Below, in pieces: positions 36,615-42,851 of a DNA stretch of 64,000 bases. A program made the translations under genes and the position numbers. Each line of letters starts with the position of its first letter. Position 1 is the first letter of the stretch. The notes beneath the pieces are model-generated. The model saw only the letters and a list, made by a program, of their open reading frames with translations, was not told where the DNA came from and searched no databases. Source of the stretch: Micromonospora rifamycinica (GTDB lineage Bacteria; Actinomycetota; Actinomycetes; Mycobacteriales; Micromonosporaceae); assembly GCF_900090265.1 (NCBI RefSeq), contig NZ_LT607752.1, forward strand, positions 1,488,001-1,552,000, given 5' to 3'.

Positions 36615-37438
36615 GGGGTGCTCCGGCGGTGGCGACGGCGGCGCAGGCCGGTGAGCAGCACCGCCCCGAGCACGGGTACGACCAGCACGGCGAGCCACCA
36701 GCGGCCGGTGTCGGAGGCGGCGCTGACCCGGGTCACCTGCGCCTGGTCGCCGGCATCGGCCGGGTCCGCCGGGTCGCCGGTGCCGGCAGGGGCGACGGCG
36801 GTGGCCGACGCCGGTGTGCCGCCGGTGGGCGTGCCGGCCGCGCCGGTCGGGGCCGCCGCCGGTGGGGTGGTCCGGGCGGCACCCCCGGTGGTCGCCGGGG
36901 CGGCGGTGGCCGGGGTACGGGTCGGTGCGGGCGCTGCGGCGGCGGCGAAGGTGACCGGCACCCGGACATCCTGCGAGCGGTCGGCGGTGCGGGTGTGGTC
37001 GGCGCGGGAGGCGACCACGCACCGGCTGACGGTGCAGTCGATCGTGCCGATGCGGGGGTTCACGGTGAGGGTCACCCGGAACGAGCCGCCCGGGCCGTAG
37101 GGGACGGCCAGTCCCTCCCCGTAGGAGGGTGGGTCGGACGAGATCCAGTGCGACGCGCCGGTGCTGCCGGTGGTGTCGGCCCCACCGCCGCACGGGCTGG
37201 GGGCGGCCCCGGCGCCGTTGTCCACGCAGAACGCGACATAGATGCCCTTGGTGACGTCGTACCCGTTGCCGGTGACGGTCACCGTCGCCCCGGTGCGGGA
37301 CACCCCGCTGGTGGGGGTGGCGGTGAGGGTCTGCCCGGCGGCGCCCCGCCCGGTCCCGGCGTGGGCCGGCGTCGACCCCACGCCGATACTGACAGTGATC
37401 GCGGCGACGGTCAGGATGGCGCGAGGCAGTGCCCGCAT
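36611..37438 (-). CDS. Iron-regulated surface protein, one Ig-like domain, C-terminal anchor
   Basis: 275 aa from ATG 37438 behind GGGAGGAG; an in-frame extension to 37474 is unlikely because the ribosome site fits 37438. Signal peptide AILTVAAITVSIGVGSTPAHA. One Ig/IPT-like domain (LTATPTSGVSRTGATVTVTGNGYDVTKGIYVAFCVDNG ... IDCTVSRCVVASRADHTRTADRSQDVRVPVTF) matches the second domain of the HtaA fusion encoded across the promoter. A Pro/Ala/Thr linker leads to a TM helix (WWLAVLVVPVLGAVLLTGL) and RRRRHRR tail. Cys pairs are shared between the two proteins. It probably relays heme at the cell surface, like HtaB/HtaC. Confidence 0.8.
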   Translation of the reverse strand: MRALPRAILTVAAITVSIGVGSTPAHAGTGRGAAGQTLTATPTSGVSRTGATVTVTGNGYDVTKGIYVAFCVDNGAGAAPSPCGGGADTTGSTGASHWISSDPPSYGEGLAVPYGPGGSFRVTLTVNPRIGTIDCTVSRCVVASRADHTRTADRSQDVRVPVTFAAAAAPAPTRTPATAAPATTGGAARTTPPAAAPTGAAGTPTGGTPASATAVAPAGTGDPADPADAGDQAQVTRVSAASDTGRWWLAVLVVPVLGAVLLTGLRRRRHRRSTP

Positions 37439-37486
37439 CAGGCTCCTCCCATGACGGATCGGGCCGGCTGCCACACCGACCGTAGT

Positions 37487-37505
37487 TAAGGTTTGCCTAA
37501 CCTAA
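37487..37505. promoter_or_regulatory. DtxR/IdeR iron box, leftward operon
   Basis: TAAGGTTTGCCTAACCTAA matches the degenerate 19-bp consensus TWAGGTWAGSCTWACCTWA at 18 of 19 positions. It lies 49 bp before the ATG at 37438, so iron-loaded DtxR/IdeR should repress the 37438-32593 hmu operon. Confidence 0.85.
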
Positions 37506-37577
37506 GCGACTGATCCGCTGTTCACAAGAGGTTCTTCGGCCCAAGATCTTCGGCCGCTTTGCCGGATGCCGCAGTAG

Positions 37578-37596
37578 TTAGGTTTGCCTAACCTCA
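37578..37596. promoter_or_regulatory. DtxR/IdeR iron box, rightward operon
   Basis: TTAGGTTTGCCTAACCTCA matches the same consensus at 17 of 19 positions, 37 bp before the ATG at 37633. The two boxes are 91 bp apart, one for each divergent transcript. Confidence 0.85.
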
Positions 37597-37632
37597 ACCA
37601 CTGTCCGTATTGGGCACCACAGAGGGAGCAGC

Positions 37633-39141
37633 ATGGTCAGATCCAGAACCAATGCCGGTCGGTGGCGGACGTCGCGCTGGGCGGCGGTCGCCCTGCTCGG
37701 CGCGTCGACCGTCCTCGTCGGGGTCAGCCCCGCCCAGGCCGCCGGGGCGGAGCTCAGCTCCGGCAGCCTGACCTGGGGTTTCAAGGCGTCTTTCCGCGCC
37801 TACGTGAACACCGGCAACGGCAACCCGCCGATCGCCGCCAGCGACGGCGCCCGCATCAACAGCGACGGCACCTTCACCTTCCCCGCGAAGGGCGGCACGT
37901 ACGACGCCGGCACCGGCGCCATCGACGCCGCGTACGGCGGGAAGATCGTCTTCTCGTACCCGGCGCACTTCTTCACCATCGCGTTGGCCAACCCGACGAT
38001 CGTCGTGACCGGTGGCACCGCCGCCGTCAAGGCGGACGTCGACCTCACCACCACGGCGGCCGAGCCGGTCTCGGTCCGCCAGGCCACCATCGCCACCGTC
38101 ACCACCAGCGACGGCAACCCCGGTGGCAGCGGTGGCACGGTGACCGCGACCGATCTGGCCGCGACGCTGACCGCCGAGGGCGCCTCGGCGTTCAACGGCT
38201 TCTACAGCGCCGGCTCCACGCTCGACCCGCTGTCGTTCACCTTCTCCACGGGTGGCGGCGGCGAACCGGCCGGACCGGCCGTCGGCGTCACCCCCGCCAC
38301 CGGGCTCGACCCGGCCGGGGCGACGATCACGGTCACCGGCAGCGGCTTCGACCCGGAGGCCAACGGGGCGGCGGGGATCTACGTCTCCTTCGGCCCCAAG
38401 GTCGACCAGCACTGGACCAACGCCGGTGTCCTCCAGGTCACCAAGTGGGTCAACAAGACGAACGAGCCGACCGAGGCCCGCGACCGGCTCAACGCCGACG
38501 GCACGTTCCGCACCACCCTGCCGATCAGCGCGGTCTACACCGACCGCACCGGCGCGCAGGTCGACTGCACGAAGGTGCAGTGCTACGTCGTCACCTTCGC
38601 CGCCCGCGGCGCCGCCGACCGTAGCCAGGACACCTTCACCCCGGTGACCTTCGCCCGTGCCCCGGTGGGCGGCGGCGACGCCGACCAGCAGATCACCACC
38701 ACCGTCACCGGTGGCGCGCTGACCCTCGGCGTGGCCGGCTCCACGGTCGCCCTGCCGGCGGTCAGCAACGGGCAGGTCACCACCGGGGCGCTGAACGCCG
38801 CCACGGTCGCCGACCTGCGCGGCACCAACGCCGGCTGGAGCCTGGTCGGGCAGGCCTCCGACTTCGCCTCGACCACCGGCGGCACCATCGCGGCGGACAA
38901 CCTGGGTTGGGTGCCGAGCGCCACCGTCGGCACCGACCCGCTCGCCGGCACCCCCGGCGTGGTCACCCCGGGCGCGCCCGCCGCGCCCGGTGCCGGACTG
39001 GGCACGGCGCGTGCGCTGTGCACCTCGGCCACCGGCGCGAGCAACGGCACCTTCACCTGTGGCGCCCAGCTCAACCTGGGGGTTCCGGCGTCCGCCCCGG
39101 CGGGCGACTACAGCGCGGTGCTCACCCTCACCCTCTCCTGA
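37633..39141 (+). CDS. htaA: Surface heme-binding protein: HtaA domain, Ig-like domain and C-terminal WxL-like domain
   Basis: 502 aa, ATG 37633 behind AGAGGGAG. Signal peptide to VSPAQA (about 36). The HtaA domain (about 38-205) has the hallmark LSSGSLTWGFKASFRAYVNTGNG, FPAKGGTYDAGTG and GKIVFSYPAHFFTIALANPTIVV, with the conserved Tyr that can ligate heme. An Ig/IPT-like domain follows (215-345: VGVTPATGLDPAGATITVTGSGF ... DRSQDTFTPVTF). The last 150 residues form a WxL-like domain with a true W-S-L motif (NAGWSLVGQASDF) and the ending SAPAGDYSAVLTLTLS. HtaA proteins normally end in a TM anchor; here the WxL-like module replaces it. Confidence 0.88.
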   Translation: MVRSRTNAGRWRTSRWAAVALLGASTVLVGVSPAQAAGAELSSGSLTWGFKASFRAYVNTGNGNPPIAASDGARINSDGTFTFPAKGGTYDAGTGAIDAAYGGKIVFSYPAHFFTIALANPTIVVTGGTAAVKADVDLTTTAAEPVSVRQATIATVTTSDGNPGGSGGTVTATDLAATLTAEGASAFNGFYSAGSTLDPLSFTFSTGGGGEPAGPAVGVTPATGLDPAGATITVTGSGFDPEANGAAGIYVSFGPKVDQHWTNAGVLQVTKWVNKTNEPTEARDRLNADGTFRTTLPISAVYTDRTGAQVDCTKVQCYVVTFAARGAADRSQDTFTPVTFARAPVGGGDADQQITTTVTGGALTLGVAGSTVALPAVSNGQVTTGALNAATVADLRGTNAGWSLVGQASDFASTTGGTIAADNLGWVPSATVGTDPLAGTPGVVTPGAPAAPGAGLGTARALCTSATGASNGTFTCGAQLNLGVPASAPAGDYSAVLTLTLS

Positions 39142-39210
39142 TCAGGCACCACACCGGTGGGACGGGCCCCGTGCCCGTCCCACCGGCCCGACCACTCCCC
39201 GGAGCCCGGC

Positions 39211-40266
39211 ATGTCCCTGTCTACCGCCCTGTCCCGCAGCGGCGCCGCGCTCGCCGCCGCGCTGCTCGTGGCCACGGTCCAGCCCGCACCGGCCCGCGCC
39301 GCGCCCGCCCCGACGCCCGGCCCGACGGCCGCCGCCGGGGAGACCGGCACGGCCCGCTGGGCCGTCCAGCCGTCCAGCGCCAAGGGTCCGACCGGGCGCA
39401 ACTACTTCATCTACGACCTGGCCCCGGGCAGCACCCTGACCGACCACGTCGGCATCACCAACCTCGGCGACCGCCCGGTCACCTTCGATGTGTACGGCAC
39501 CGACGCGTACAGTGCCGCCGACGGCGCGTTCGCCCTGCTGCCGGCGGACCGGCCGGCCACCGACGTGGGCTCCTGGATCCGCGTCGACCGGCGCGAGTGG
39601 ACGATCCCGGCGGGCAAACGGGTCGACATCCCGTTCCGGCTCACCGTGCCGGTCAACGCGACCCCGGGCGACCACACCGGCGGGGTGATCGGCGCGGTGG
39701 CCCGGGTCCGGACCACCGCCACCGGGCAGCGGGTGCTGGTCGACCAACGGCTCGCCGCCCGGGTCTACCTGCGGGTCACCGGCCCGGTCCGACCGGCCGT
39801 CACCGTCGAGGCGGTCGACGTCTCCTACGACCACCCGGTCGACCCGTTCGGCGGTGGCGACCTGGTGGTCCGCTACCGGCTGCGCAACGACGGCAACGTC
39901 CGGCTCGGCGGCAGCGGCACGGTGACCGTCACCGCCCCCTTCGGCCGGGAACAGGCCCGCACCTCCCCCACCGACCTGCCGGAGCTGCTCCCCGGGACGA
40001 CCTTCACCGTCACCGAGCGGATCACCGGCGTACCCCCGCTGCTGCGGCTGACCGCCGCGGTCGACATCGCGGCGACCAGCACGGACACCGCGCTACCGCC
40101 GGTGGTCCGTACCGCCGGGGTGTGGGCACCGCCCTGGCTGTTGCTGGCCCTGCTCGCCGGGGCGGCCGGCTGGGCCGGGCTGCGGTGGTGGCGACGCCGG
40201 CGCACTGCCGCCGACGGGCCGGATCCGGATGCCGACCCGCGTCCCGCCGCCCCGCCCGCCCGATGA
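39211..40266 (+). CDS. WxL-interacting-type (DUF916-like) anchored protein of the heme island
   Basis: 351 aa from ATG 39211. Signal peptide ending PAPARA. The first sandwich domain reads NYFIYDLAPGSTLTDHVGITNLGDRPVTFDVYG ... GSWIRVDRREWTIPAGKRVDIPFRLTVPVNATPGDHTGGVIGAV, like DUF916. The second (about 185-300) is a CARDB/Ig-like sandwich, then a TM helix (PPWLLLALLAGAAGWAGL) with RWWRRRR stop-transfer. It is homologous to the protein at 12535-13503. It lies directly after the HtaA-WxL fusion, so a WxL to WxL-interacting pairing at the wall is the natural reading. Confidence 0.8.
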   Translation: MSLSTALSRSGAALAAALLVATVQPAPARAAPAPTPGPTAAAGETGTARWAVQPSSAKGPTGRNYFIYDLAPGSTLTDHVGITNLGDRPVTFDVYGTDAYSAADGAFALLPADRPATDVGSWIRVDRREWTIPAGKRVDIPFRLTVPVNATPGDHTGGVIGAVARVRTTATGQRVLVDQRLAARVYLRVTGPVRPAVTVEAVDVSYDHPVDPFGGGDLVVRYRLRNDGNVRLGGSGTVTVTAPFGREQARTSPTDLPELLPGTTFTVTERITGVPPLLRLTAAVDIAATSTDTALPPVVRTAGVWAPPWLLLALLAGAAGWAGLRWWRRRRTAADGPDPDADPRPAAPPAR

Positions 40267-41132
40267 CCGGGCCGCTGCGTGCCGTGGCCCTGCTGGCGGT
40301 GGCCGCCGCGTTGGCTCCGGGCGGCACCCCGGCGGGCGGTGCTCCCGGCGTCACCGTGCCGGCCGGGACGCTGCGGGTCGGCCAGCGGGTGCTGGTCGGC
40401 CTGGACGGCTGGCCGGCCGGCACGGTGCAGGCCGAGGTGTGCGGCAACGCGGCCCGGCGCGGGGTGCTCGACTGCGCGACCGGGGCCGCCACCCACGGCC
40501 AGGTGCCGCCCACCGGCCGGGCCACCCTGCCGGTGCTGGTGGCCGCCCCGCCGGTAGCCTGCCCCTGCGTGCTGCGGGTCCGCACGCCGACCGGCACCGC
40601 CAGCGCCGTCACCGACCTGGCGCTGACCGGGGTCGACGCCCCGGCGGTCGCGCCGACCGTACCGGCCGGGCTGACCCTGGTACGGGTGCACGCCGTCGAC
40701 CGGTCCGGGCCACGCGGCTGGTTCGGCCTGCCCGGCGAGCTCGCGGTCCGGATCACCCTGCACAACCCCGGCGCGCAGGACGTCACCGACCCGCCGTTGC
40801 AGCTCACCGTCGGGCCGCCCGGACAGGCCCGGACCATCGTGGCCGCCCCGGCGTTGGGCCGCATCGCCGCCGGGCAGACCCGCGAGTACCACGTGCCGGT
40901 GTCCACCGGCACGGCCCCGTTCGGCAGCTACGAGGTGGAGGGTCGGATCGTGACACCCGGTCGACCTGTCGCGTTCACCGTGGCGGCTGCCCGGCGGCCC
41001 TGGGGGCTGCCGGTCGCCGCCGCCGTCCTCACGGTCGTGTCGCTGCTCGCCCGGCCGGCACGACGCCGGGCAGAGGACGGCCCGGTCGTCGTCGCGGCCG
41101 GGGTGTCGACGCCTCCCCTGCCTGGCGGCTAG
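40263..41132 (+). CDS. Secreted, C-terminally anchored protein of the heme island, function unknown
   Basis: 289 aa from ATG 40263, overlapping the previous stop by 4 bp. Signal peptide VALLAVAAALAPGGTPAGG. An N-terminal domain contains two Cys pairs (AEVCGNAARRGVLDCATG and PVACPCVLRVRTPTG) and resembles the neocarzinostatin/Ig-like domains seen in actinomycete surface proteins. A second sandwich follows (ELAVRITLHNPGAQDVTDPPLQLTVG ... GQTREYHVPVSTG), then a TM segment (WGLPVAAAVLTVVSLLA) and a basic tail. It is the last gene of the DtxR-controlled rightward operon. Confidence 0.75.
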   Translation: MTGPLRAVALLAVAAALAPGGTPAGGAPGVTVPAGTLRVGQRVLVGLDGWPAGTVQAEVCGNAARRGVLDCATGAATHGQVPPTGRATLPVLVAAPPVACPCVLRVRTPTGTASAVTDLALTGVDAPAVAPTVPAGLTLVRVHAVDRSGPRGWFGLPGELAVRITLHNPGAQDVTDPPLQLTVGPPGQARTIVAAPALGRIAAGQTREYHVPVSTGTAPFGSYEVEGRIVTPGRPVAFTVAAARRPWGLPVAAAVLTVVSLLARPARRRAEDGPVVVAAGVSTPPLPGG

Positions 41133-41710
41133 CCCGGGCCTGACCCGCTCCGGCCCTGCACCCGGGGCAGCGCCCGCCGGATCGCCGCGTCGCTGTGCCC
41201 GCCCACCCAGATCGGTGGCCCGCCGGGCCGGTACGGGGCAACGCCGATGCGCGCGCCGCGCAGGCTCGCGAACCTGTCGTCCAGGTCGGCGGTGGTGCCG
41301 GCCCAGAGGGCCTTCATGACCTCCAGGCTCTCGTCGGTCCGCCGGCCACGTAGCCGCAGCGGCACCCCCAGCGCGCTGAACTCCTGCGGGTTCCATCCGG
41401 TGCCGACGGCGACCGCCAGCCGACCCGCCGACACGACGTCCAGCGTCGCGAGCTGGTTGGCCAGCACCACAGGTTGGTAGTAGGGCAGGACCAGCACGCT
41501 CGTCGCGATCCCCAGGCGGGTCGTCGCCCCGGCGACCGCCGCCAGCAGGACCACCGGGTCGAAGCCGGCGCCGTGCGGGTTCTCCAGCACGTGGTTGGCC
41601 AGCAGGACGTGATCCAGGCCGATCCGCTCGGCGTTCCGCGCTGCCCGGAGCATCGCGGCACCCGCGTCGCCCGGCCACGCCTGCGGTTCGAGGGAGAGTC
41701 CGAATCTCAT
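41129..41710 (-). pseudogene. Truncated LLM-class F420-dependent oxidoreductase
   Basis: 193 aa; the luciferase-like barrel begins normally (MRFGLSLEPQAWPGDAGAAMLRAARNAERIGLDHVLLANHVL) and continues through IATSVLVLPYYQPVVLANQLATLDVVSAGRLAVAVGTGWNP to PPIWVGGHSDAAIRRAL. It then breaks into RVQGRSGSGPG and stops, about 100 residues short of the usual 280-330. The lost part includes the last barrel strands. The stop overlaps the end of the convergent heme-island gene by 4 bp, so the truncation sits on the island's border. Its ATG is 10 bp after the MerR remnant. It is probably inactive. Confidence 0.75.
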
Positions 41711-41720
41711 CGTGACCGGG

Positions 41721-41762
41721 GGGGCTGACGCCGCAGCGGCGCGCGAGTTCTCCGATCCGCAT
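41721..41762 (-). pseudogene. MerR-family regulator remnant (first 14 codons)
   Basis: ATG 41762, behind AAGGAG, reads MRIGELARRCGVSP, the textbook start of a MerR helix-turn-helix. The next expected residues (xTLRYYE...) are missing: the frame passes straight into the start of the oxidoreductase gene in another frame. Everything after the first recognition helix has been deleted. Confidence 0.7.
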
Positions 41763-41791
41763 GTCGCCGGTCTCCTTCCGCACCTGGCGAT

Positions 41792-41822
41792 GCTAGAACC
41801 CTGACATCACTGTCAAGGTCAA
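41792..41822 (-). promoter_or_regulatory. MerR-type promoter with 19-bp spacer and dyad
   Basis: On the - strand, -35 TTGACC (41822-41817), a 19-bp spacer and -10-like TCTAGC (41797-41792). The spacer carries the dyad CCTTGACA-GTGA-TGTCAGGG (41818-41799, one mismatch). The long spacer with a dyad inside is characteristic of MerR-activated promoters. Confidence 0.7.
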
Positions 41823-41957
41823 GCCATCGCGGGCGCGGCGGGACCGGACGTCGCGGGCAGGACGGCGGGATGGCCCCTGACCGGGCCACCCCGCTCCAGC
41901 GTGCCTACCGGCCGGGCGGGTACGACACCCCGCCCGCCGGCCGGGGCCGGGCTCGAC

Positions 41958-42851
41958 TCAGAAGCGCGCCCAGTCGTCGGCGGCCGGCCGCCACACGTCG
42001 ATGTTGCGCGGGTCCACCGCCATCCGACGCGCCCGGTGGGTCTCGTGCTCCTCCGGGGTGAACACCCGGTGCCGGTCGCACAGCTCGTAGCGCGGCCCGT
42101 GCCGGGTGTCATGCATGTAGAAGGCGATCGACGTGGACGCCGAGTGGTTGACCAGGTCGGACGCGATCGGGATCTGCTTGTACTGCGCCCGCGCCCGGCC
42201 GCGCATCACGTGGTCGAAGCTCTTCATCATGAAGCACAGGTGCGCGACGTAGAACTCGTTGTTGCGCTGGATCGCCAGGCTGTGGTGGTAGCGGTCCTCG
42301 CTGCGCAGGAAGACCGTGACGTCGCCGACGTGGTCGGACTCCAGGAAGCCGAGCACCTTGGTGTAGAACGCCAGCGTCTCGTCGTACTTGTCGGTGGCGA
42401 GGAACGGGTGTACCAGGTCCAGCGGGCGCAGCTCGATCAGCGGCGGCTCGGCGTACTCCTGGAACTCGGTGAACAGCTCGACGATCAGCCCGTTGGGGTC
42501 GCGGACGGCGAAGCCCCGCTGGACCAGGCCCTTGACCCGGTCGGCCAGCTCGAACACCTCGTGCCCGGCGGCGGTCACCCGCTCGCGCAGGTCGTCGAGG
42601 ACGGCGTCGTTCTCGACGCTGAACCCGACCGCCGTGGTCCACGACTCGGTACGCTGCGGCGCGGCGACCAGTTCGATGCTGTGGTGCTCCAGGTCGGCGC
42701 GGAGGAACGCGTACTCGTCGTCGTGCTGCTCCAGTTGCAGCCCGACGTGGTATTGGAGGAACTCGATGGAGGCGGCCAGGTCGGGCACCTCGATCCGGGC
42801 GTACTCCATGCCGTACGGCCCACGGCGGCGGGCGGTGGCCTCGGTGGTCAT
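41958..42851 (-). CDS. Type I extradiol (ring-cleavage) dioxygenase, two VOC domains
   Basis: 297 aa from ATG 42851. Two vicinal-oxygen-chelate modules: the N-terminal one (YARIEVPDLAASIEFLQYHVGLQL) lacks metal ligands, and the C-terminal one has His148 (DLVHPFLATD), His204 (YVAHLCFMMKSFDH) and Glu256 (GPRYELCDRH), the 2-His-1-carboxylate Fe(II)/Mn(II) site, with Tyr255 next to it. The layout is that of homoprotocatechuate or catechol 2,3-dioxygenases. It should open the ring of a catecholic intermediate. The start overlaps the Dabb gene's stop by 4 bp; the Rieske oxygenase genes lie just upstream. Confidence 0.88.
   Translation of the reverse strand: MTTEATARRRGPYGMEYARIEVPDLAASIEFLQYHVGLQLEQHDDEYAFLRADLEHHSIELVAAPQRTESWTTAVGFSVENDAVLDDLRERVTAAGHEVFELADRVKGLVQRGFAVRDPNGLIVELFTEFQEYAEPPLIELRPLDLVHPFLATDKYDETLAFYTKVLGFLESDHVGDVTVFLRSEDRYHHSLAIQRNNEFYVAHLCFMMKSFDHVMRGRARAQYKQIPIASDLVNHSASTSIAFYMHDTRHGPRYELCDRHRVFTPEEHETHRARRMAVDPRNIDVWRPAADDWARF

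Follow-up and report, generated by a model that had tools for sequence, protein, structure and literature searches.

A probable compound deletion scar and parallel decay of a merR-LLM oxidoreductase operon in Micromonospora

In this study, we analysed a 64,000-nucleotide stretch of the Micromonospora rifamycinica chromosome (hereafter the window, whose first base is position 1). The sequence from about 41068 to 41762 is very probably a compound deletion scar, left by an operon that has been eroded repeatedly in a variable slot, and the gene remnants in it are taken to be ordinary pseudogenes. Intact orthologues of both operon genes, merR and an LLM-family oxidoreductase gene, stand at the same site in two related species. 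The copies in M. rifamycinica carry disabling deletions of 346 bp and 327 bp, and two further related species carry different lesions. This parallel decay of the operon is the new result of our analysis. Judged by what the deletions removed, neither a working regulator nor a working (beta/alpha)8 oxidoreductase would be expected to remain in the window.

Results

The genome from which the window comes (G000) is a single 7.01-Mb contig listed as 100% complete. The merR-LLM site has a heme-uptake/WxL island on one side and a Rieske/VOC dioxygenase cluster on the other (Table 1), and the last gene of the island has no Pfam match. An HtaA-domain protein of the island (window 37633-40266) shows a sub-threshold C-terminal WxL match (21.4 against 25 bits), and the gene after it matches a WxL-interacting-protein domain (38.2 against 27.3 bits); we read these genes as a putative heme-binding surface system of the WxL type. 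An imperfect inverted repeat, GGCGGGATGGCCCC...GGGCCACCCCGC (window 41865-41895), separates the VOC gene from the merR promoter and is present too in G155, G140 and G060. This repeat is perhaps the terminator of the VOC operon; a scan for T-run terminators found none there.

Table 1. Features of the scar and its borders in the window.
Feature	Position	Strand	Details
Last gene of heme-uptake/WxL island	40263..41132	+	C-terminal codons are scar sequence
SnoaL-like gene relic	41073..41107	+	23 + 12 exact bases against the G043 copy, 10-base gap
LLM (F420-type, TIGR03619-like) oxidoreductase remnant, 193 codons and native stop	41129..41710	-	Codons 182-290 (G004 numbering) deleted in frame
Native LLM C-terminal tail and stop, last 12 codons	41129..41166	-	PRVQGRSGSGPG then stop; compare G004, PRVQRTSGSGPR then stop
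LLM deletion junction	41167..41170	-	CTGC at both ends, 4-bp microhomology
merR deletion junction	41711..41724	-	Seven-C tract, then GGTCACG
merR remnant, codons 1 to about 14	41723..41762	-	MRIGELARRCGVS common to G155; next P as in G140 and G060
merR promoter region	41790..41822	-	TTGACC 41817-41822; imperfect dyad 41798-41819; TAGCAT 41790-41795
VOC (extradiol-dioxygenase-like) gene, intact, flanking	41958..42851	-	Protein 98-100% identical in the other four species

The merR gene is reduced to its beginning. From the ATG at 41760-41762 on the reverse strand, the remnant reads MRIGELARRCGVSP and runs into the LLM ATG at 41708-41710. This start and the promoter stretch match the intact merR of M. 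wenchangensis CCTCC AA 2012002 (G155; from 41724 onward, within a block of 95% identity) and that of M. antibiotica MMS20-R2-23 (G004; 41720-41840, 86%), as a first-pass annotation had supposed when it described a merR promoter and start leading directly into the LLM gene. Relative to both intact copies, merR has lost 346 bp, a gap that opens at about codon 14 and closes seven bases short of the LLM start. The GGTCACG at the junction is the heptamer that precedes the LLM ATG in the intact operons, and the seven-C tract leads into GGTCACGATG, which contains this ATG. The tract (window 41718-41724) is two bases longer than its five-C counterpart in G140 and G060, and this excess makes any microhomology at the junction ambiguous. 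The merR frame no longer ends at the LLM start and differs from the LLM frame. This frame runs on without a stop for about 630 codons, antisense to the island genes, and was therefore not taken as a gene.

The intact MerR proteins of G155 and G004 match the HTH models of the MerR family (PF13411/PF00376) and have a dyad upstream, whereas the window copy, with about 14 codons left, has lost nearly all of the DNA-binding domain together with the dimerisation/effector region. The NCBIfam profiles nearest to the intact MerR are ZntR, CadR, MerR and CueR, and each scores far below its own cut-off. As to the promoter, TTGACC and an imperfect dyad are in place, but the 19-bp spacer that had been assigned to it is ambiguous, with TCTAGC standing 19 bp from TTGACC and a better -10 candidate, TAGCAT, identical in five species, at 21 bp. 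A sigma-70 scan with 16-18 bp spacing found no site at this promoter. The dyad, placed by eye, pairs at 8 of 10 arm positions, a value reached by 0.22% of window positions; its score out of 10 is 9 in G155 and G060, and 7 in G004 and G140.

The LLM gene keeps both of its ends. Compared with G004, it lacks 327 bp (109 codons, in frame) between RRAL and PRVQ, which leaves 193 of 302 amino acids. The BLAST blocks on either side of the deletion (41167-41717 and 41124-41170) overlap by 4 bp in the window and are offset by 327 bp in G004. The alignment thus indicates a gene that is internally deleted, not C-terminally truncated with a stop about 100 residues early, as had been proposed from the window alone. 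The native stop and that of the island gene on the forward strand have CTAG (41129-41132) in common, an overlap that the earlier reading had described correctly. The retained block is 94-95% identical to G155 and G004, and none of the 181 shared codons is a premature stop.

The oxidoreductase class of the LLM copies and their use of F420 are predicted from the family match. The intact orthologues score above the cut-off of TIGR03619 (F420-dependent LLM oxidoreductases, PF00296; 193.8 bits in G155 and 190.5 in G004, cut-off 166.9). The window copy differs in that it aligns over residues 23-186 at a sub-cut-off 163.3 bits and lacks barrel strands 6-8. For the intact G155 protein, an AF2 model (pLDDT 89.8), made with an alignment of 22 sequences, places these strands at E186-190, E219-225 and E266-270, which fall in the deletion together with their helices. 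The closest solved folds to this model include bacterial luciferases and the F420-dependent methylene-tetrahydromethanopterin reductase (Mer). Based on this model of the intact orthologue, the window copy would not form a complete (beta/alpha)8 barrel.

Could the 193-codon product be a functional minimal oxidoreductase, or a protein kept by selection for a new role? Such a protein would fit the in-frame deletion (with a one-in-three prior), the retained native stop, the clean reading of the remnant, and the Pfam Bac_luciferase match (PF00296), which persists at 143 bits over residues 2-181. However, the missing strands and the low TIGR03619 score speak against it, as does the lost stop-start coupling to merR, with no GGAGG-like site directly before the LLM ATG in the window. 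Moreover, the same short form was found in none of the other 159 genomes of the genus that were searched, which disposes of conservation of the short gene across the genus. Altogether, we consider this explanation very unlikely.

A further scar ends the last island gene. Conserved sequence of this gene reaches to about 41067 and the LLM tail takes over from 41124; the interval holds the relic of a SnoaL-like gene, fused in frame to the island gene and reading EDGPVVVAAG, as in G043. Among 500 random 57-base stretches of the window, none reached an equal score against the G043 copy; against the G060 copy, one did. In a whole-genome search alone, the 22-base match to G060 is weak (E 0.003); despite this value, we find the relic convincing because its position and frame fit. 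An ArsR-AHSA1-SnoaL set stands at the place of the relic in G060, with families assigned on the G043 copy, which sits at another locus. The 3' end of the set is kept in G140, and no SnoaL relic was found at the site in G155. In G060 (L143, 8350-9262), AHSA1 runs into SnoaL out of frame and the region is about 260 bp shorter than in G043, which marks a further deletion in this slot. Hence, the window holds more lesions than the two breakpoints counted in the first-pass annotation.

A protein search with the short LLM sequence against 160 genomes of the genus, that of M. rifamycinica included, matched 18 of them (E <= 1e-30). Besides the window itself, identity was 90% in G155 and G004, 59% in G052, and 39-53% in the rest. 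The syntenic site in G155 (L028) and G004 (L029) holds an intact merR and LLM gene, 92% identical over the pair, which substantiates the earlier proposal of a deletion scar. In both species merR has 133 codons and its TGA overlaps the LLM ATG, and the LLM gene has 300 codons in G155 and 302 in G004. A full-length orthologue of 294 amino acids is present in G052, where the ORFs of at least 110 amino acids listed beside it include none that is merR-like. In a wider survey, we examined 40 of 73 LLM orthologue loci, the 33 left out being mostly MAGs and weaker matches; 22 of the 40 supplied the alignment for the structure model. A merR relative lies within 1.5 kb upstream at four of the 40 loci: two in Micromonospora, one in Actinoplanes siamensis (74%) and one in Planotetraspora mira (66%). 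From the start of the match, 39 loci read at least 273 codons. The exception, in the draft genome of Streptomyces sp. GKU 895 (L079; 62%), stops after 214 codons, and may be another broken gene or a sequencing frameshift.

In G000, G140, G060 and G155, the operon has the HtaA end of the island on one side and the VOC/Rieske cluster on the other. The intact pair of G155 thus has the same colinear flanks as the window: the HtaA end (equivalent to window 37072-41057; 93% and 88%) and, opposite, the VOC/Rieske cluster (95%). The G155 contig stops at the equivalent of window 37072, so the heme oxygenase end is beyond its reach; in G140, G060 and G004 the conserved block does extend that far (window 32.6-33.1 kb). 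The island side of G004 is colinear from window 32592 on, its contig stops about 2.2 kb past merR, after unrelated genes, and the VOC gene starts another contig. Across the 160 genomes, 19 carry HtaA and nine carry the VOC gene (both at E <= 1e-60). The outgroups G012 and G043 carry the HtaA gene at one locus and the VOC cluster at another. The adjacency of HtaA and VOC is therefore a clade-specific arrangement older than the deletions: the merR-LLM pair sits on this older boundary, and the deletions in the window came later than the junction.

These data bear on whether the breakpoints mark the arrival or rearrangement of the heme island, as first suggested. The separate loci in G012 and G043 do make this an old junction, but in G155 and G004 the island side is colinear beside an intact pair, colinearity in G155 extends to the VOC cluster beyond the pair, and the breakpoints of the operon lie inside its own genes. 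Thus, arrival of the island in the M. rifamycinica genome is a highly improbable cause and was rejected. The check that had been proposed, an intact merR-LLM pair in relatives lacking the island, succeeded as far as the pair is concerned; the relatives that have it are not island-free. Between the LLM and island genes, G155 has an extra ORF of 435 codons (L028, 6226-7533) that matches no family in Pfam or NCBIfam at E 0.01, an insertion which indicates that the slot gains and loses genes readily. Read by eye, this ORF shows a signal-like stretch near its start.

A DNA search with the intact pair, which scored two first-look candidates per genome and could thus miss weak relics elsewhere, gave some match in 50 of the 160 genomes (E <= 1e-10). 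Matches of at least 120 bp at 80% identity or more occurred in five: over nearly the whole pair in G155 and G004, and in pieces in G000, G140 and G060. The remaining matches, to merR or LLM, were weaker; the highest identity among them was 85%, over 65 bp in G023. What remains differs among the three eroded copies. G000 keeps merR codons 1-14 and LLM codons 1-181 plus the tail. G140 (L041) keeps merR codons 1-82, with a junction to LLM codons around 16-57, and then a deletion reaching the island side. In G060 (L143), merR codons 1-27 are joined to LLM codon 253 to the end, a net deletion of 1071 bp. The retained parts are nested in no pair, and a common ancestry of the deletions was rejected on this ground. 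Barring exchange between species, the operon was therefore inactivated independently at least three times, through no fewer than five deletions. In three unrooted trees of flanking genes (node support 48 to 100%), G140 and G060 recur together (79-94%), as do G012 and G043 in all three (100%), and the intact G155 and G004 fall outside the G140-G060 group. The G140 locus (L041, 10010-10264) encodes an 83-codon truncated MerR with its promoter, covering the positions that match the MerR HTH in G155 (1-63); such a protein could still bind the operator.

Regarding selection, w between G155 and G004 is 0.57 for merR; in LLM it is 0.19 over codons 1-181 and 0.72 over codons 182-288. For the VOC gene (G000-G155), w is 0.013. 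Codon comparisons thus point to a pair that is weakly constrained even where intact, with some constraint on LLM codons 1-181. The high values are partly regional, as HtaA of the same island has a w of 0.33 (G155-G004). For the LLM remnant, w against G155 is 0.29. Nonsynonymous to synonymous singleton changes in LLM are 8:5 in G000, 6:12 in G155 and 5:9 in G004, differences that are not significant with so few changes (p = 0.16 and 0.26).

Discussion

The lesions and their counterparts in relatives suggest the following course, in which the loss of function and the order of events are deduced from sequence comparison. In the ancestor of this small clade, the operon would have stood between the heme island and the Rieske/VOC cluster, with a MerR-type regulator driving itself and a stop-start-overlapping F420 oxidoreductase of the LLM class. 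The ancestor may also have carried the whole ArsR-AHSA1-SnoaL set. In the M. rifamycinica lineage, the 346-bp deletion would have reduced merR to about 14 codons and broken its translational coupling to LLM. The 327-bp in-frame deletion, with its 4-bp microhomology, would have cut barrel strands 6-8 from the protein; we take microhomology-type deletion to be the probable mechanism. At least one more loss would have fused the SnoaL-like relic to the last island gene. An assembly or sequencing artefact is scarcely credible, given the single contig listed as complete, the 327- and 346-bp lesions with colinear, diverged flanks, and comparable lesions in two other assemblies.

Kuo and Ochman (2010, PMC2916853) likewise describe, for bacterial pseudogenes, how dispensable genes erode by deletion. 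The present case differs in concerning an operon of a high-GC actinomycete with different lesions in three of five species, a small sample. That study reports that young pseudogenes of Salmonella are removed too rapidly for a neutral model. Our literature search on this type of locus found no paper combining all of its features, a statement confined to that search, and no paper on merR-LLM pairs appeared in the titles or abstract starts of the matches listed.

It is also conceivable, though unlikely, that the loss was adaptive. The operon would have become costly or harmful once the heme island and the dioxygenase cluster adjoined it, and at least three lineages would have inactivated it independently and quickly. 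The count of at least three independent inactivations among five species, and the colinearity of both flanking clusters in all three with an eroded operon, are in line with this idea. However, the weak constraint on the intact copies and the other gene losses in the slot fit plain decay, and five species give no statistical power. Distinguishing drift from selection in the loss of the operon would need population data. If adaptive, the loss would tie heme or aromatic metabolism to an F420-type oxidoreductase that is otherwise an orphan.

The reading that we favour, repeated erosion of a weakly constrained operon in a variable slot, corrects how three ORFs are to be read that gene callers might accept as genuine: the short LLM gene, the merR-frame ORF and the C-terminus of the last island gene. 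It also provides a small, clean case of parallel gene decay in an actinomycete, in which one operon at one site shows three non-nested sets of deletions alongside two intact references.
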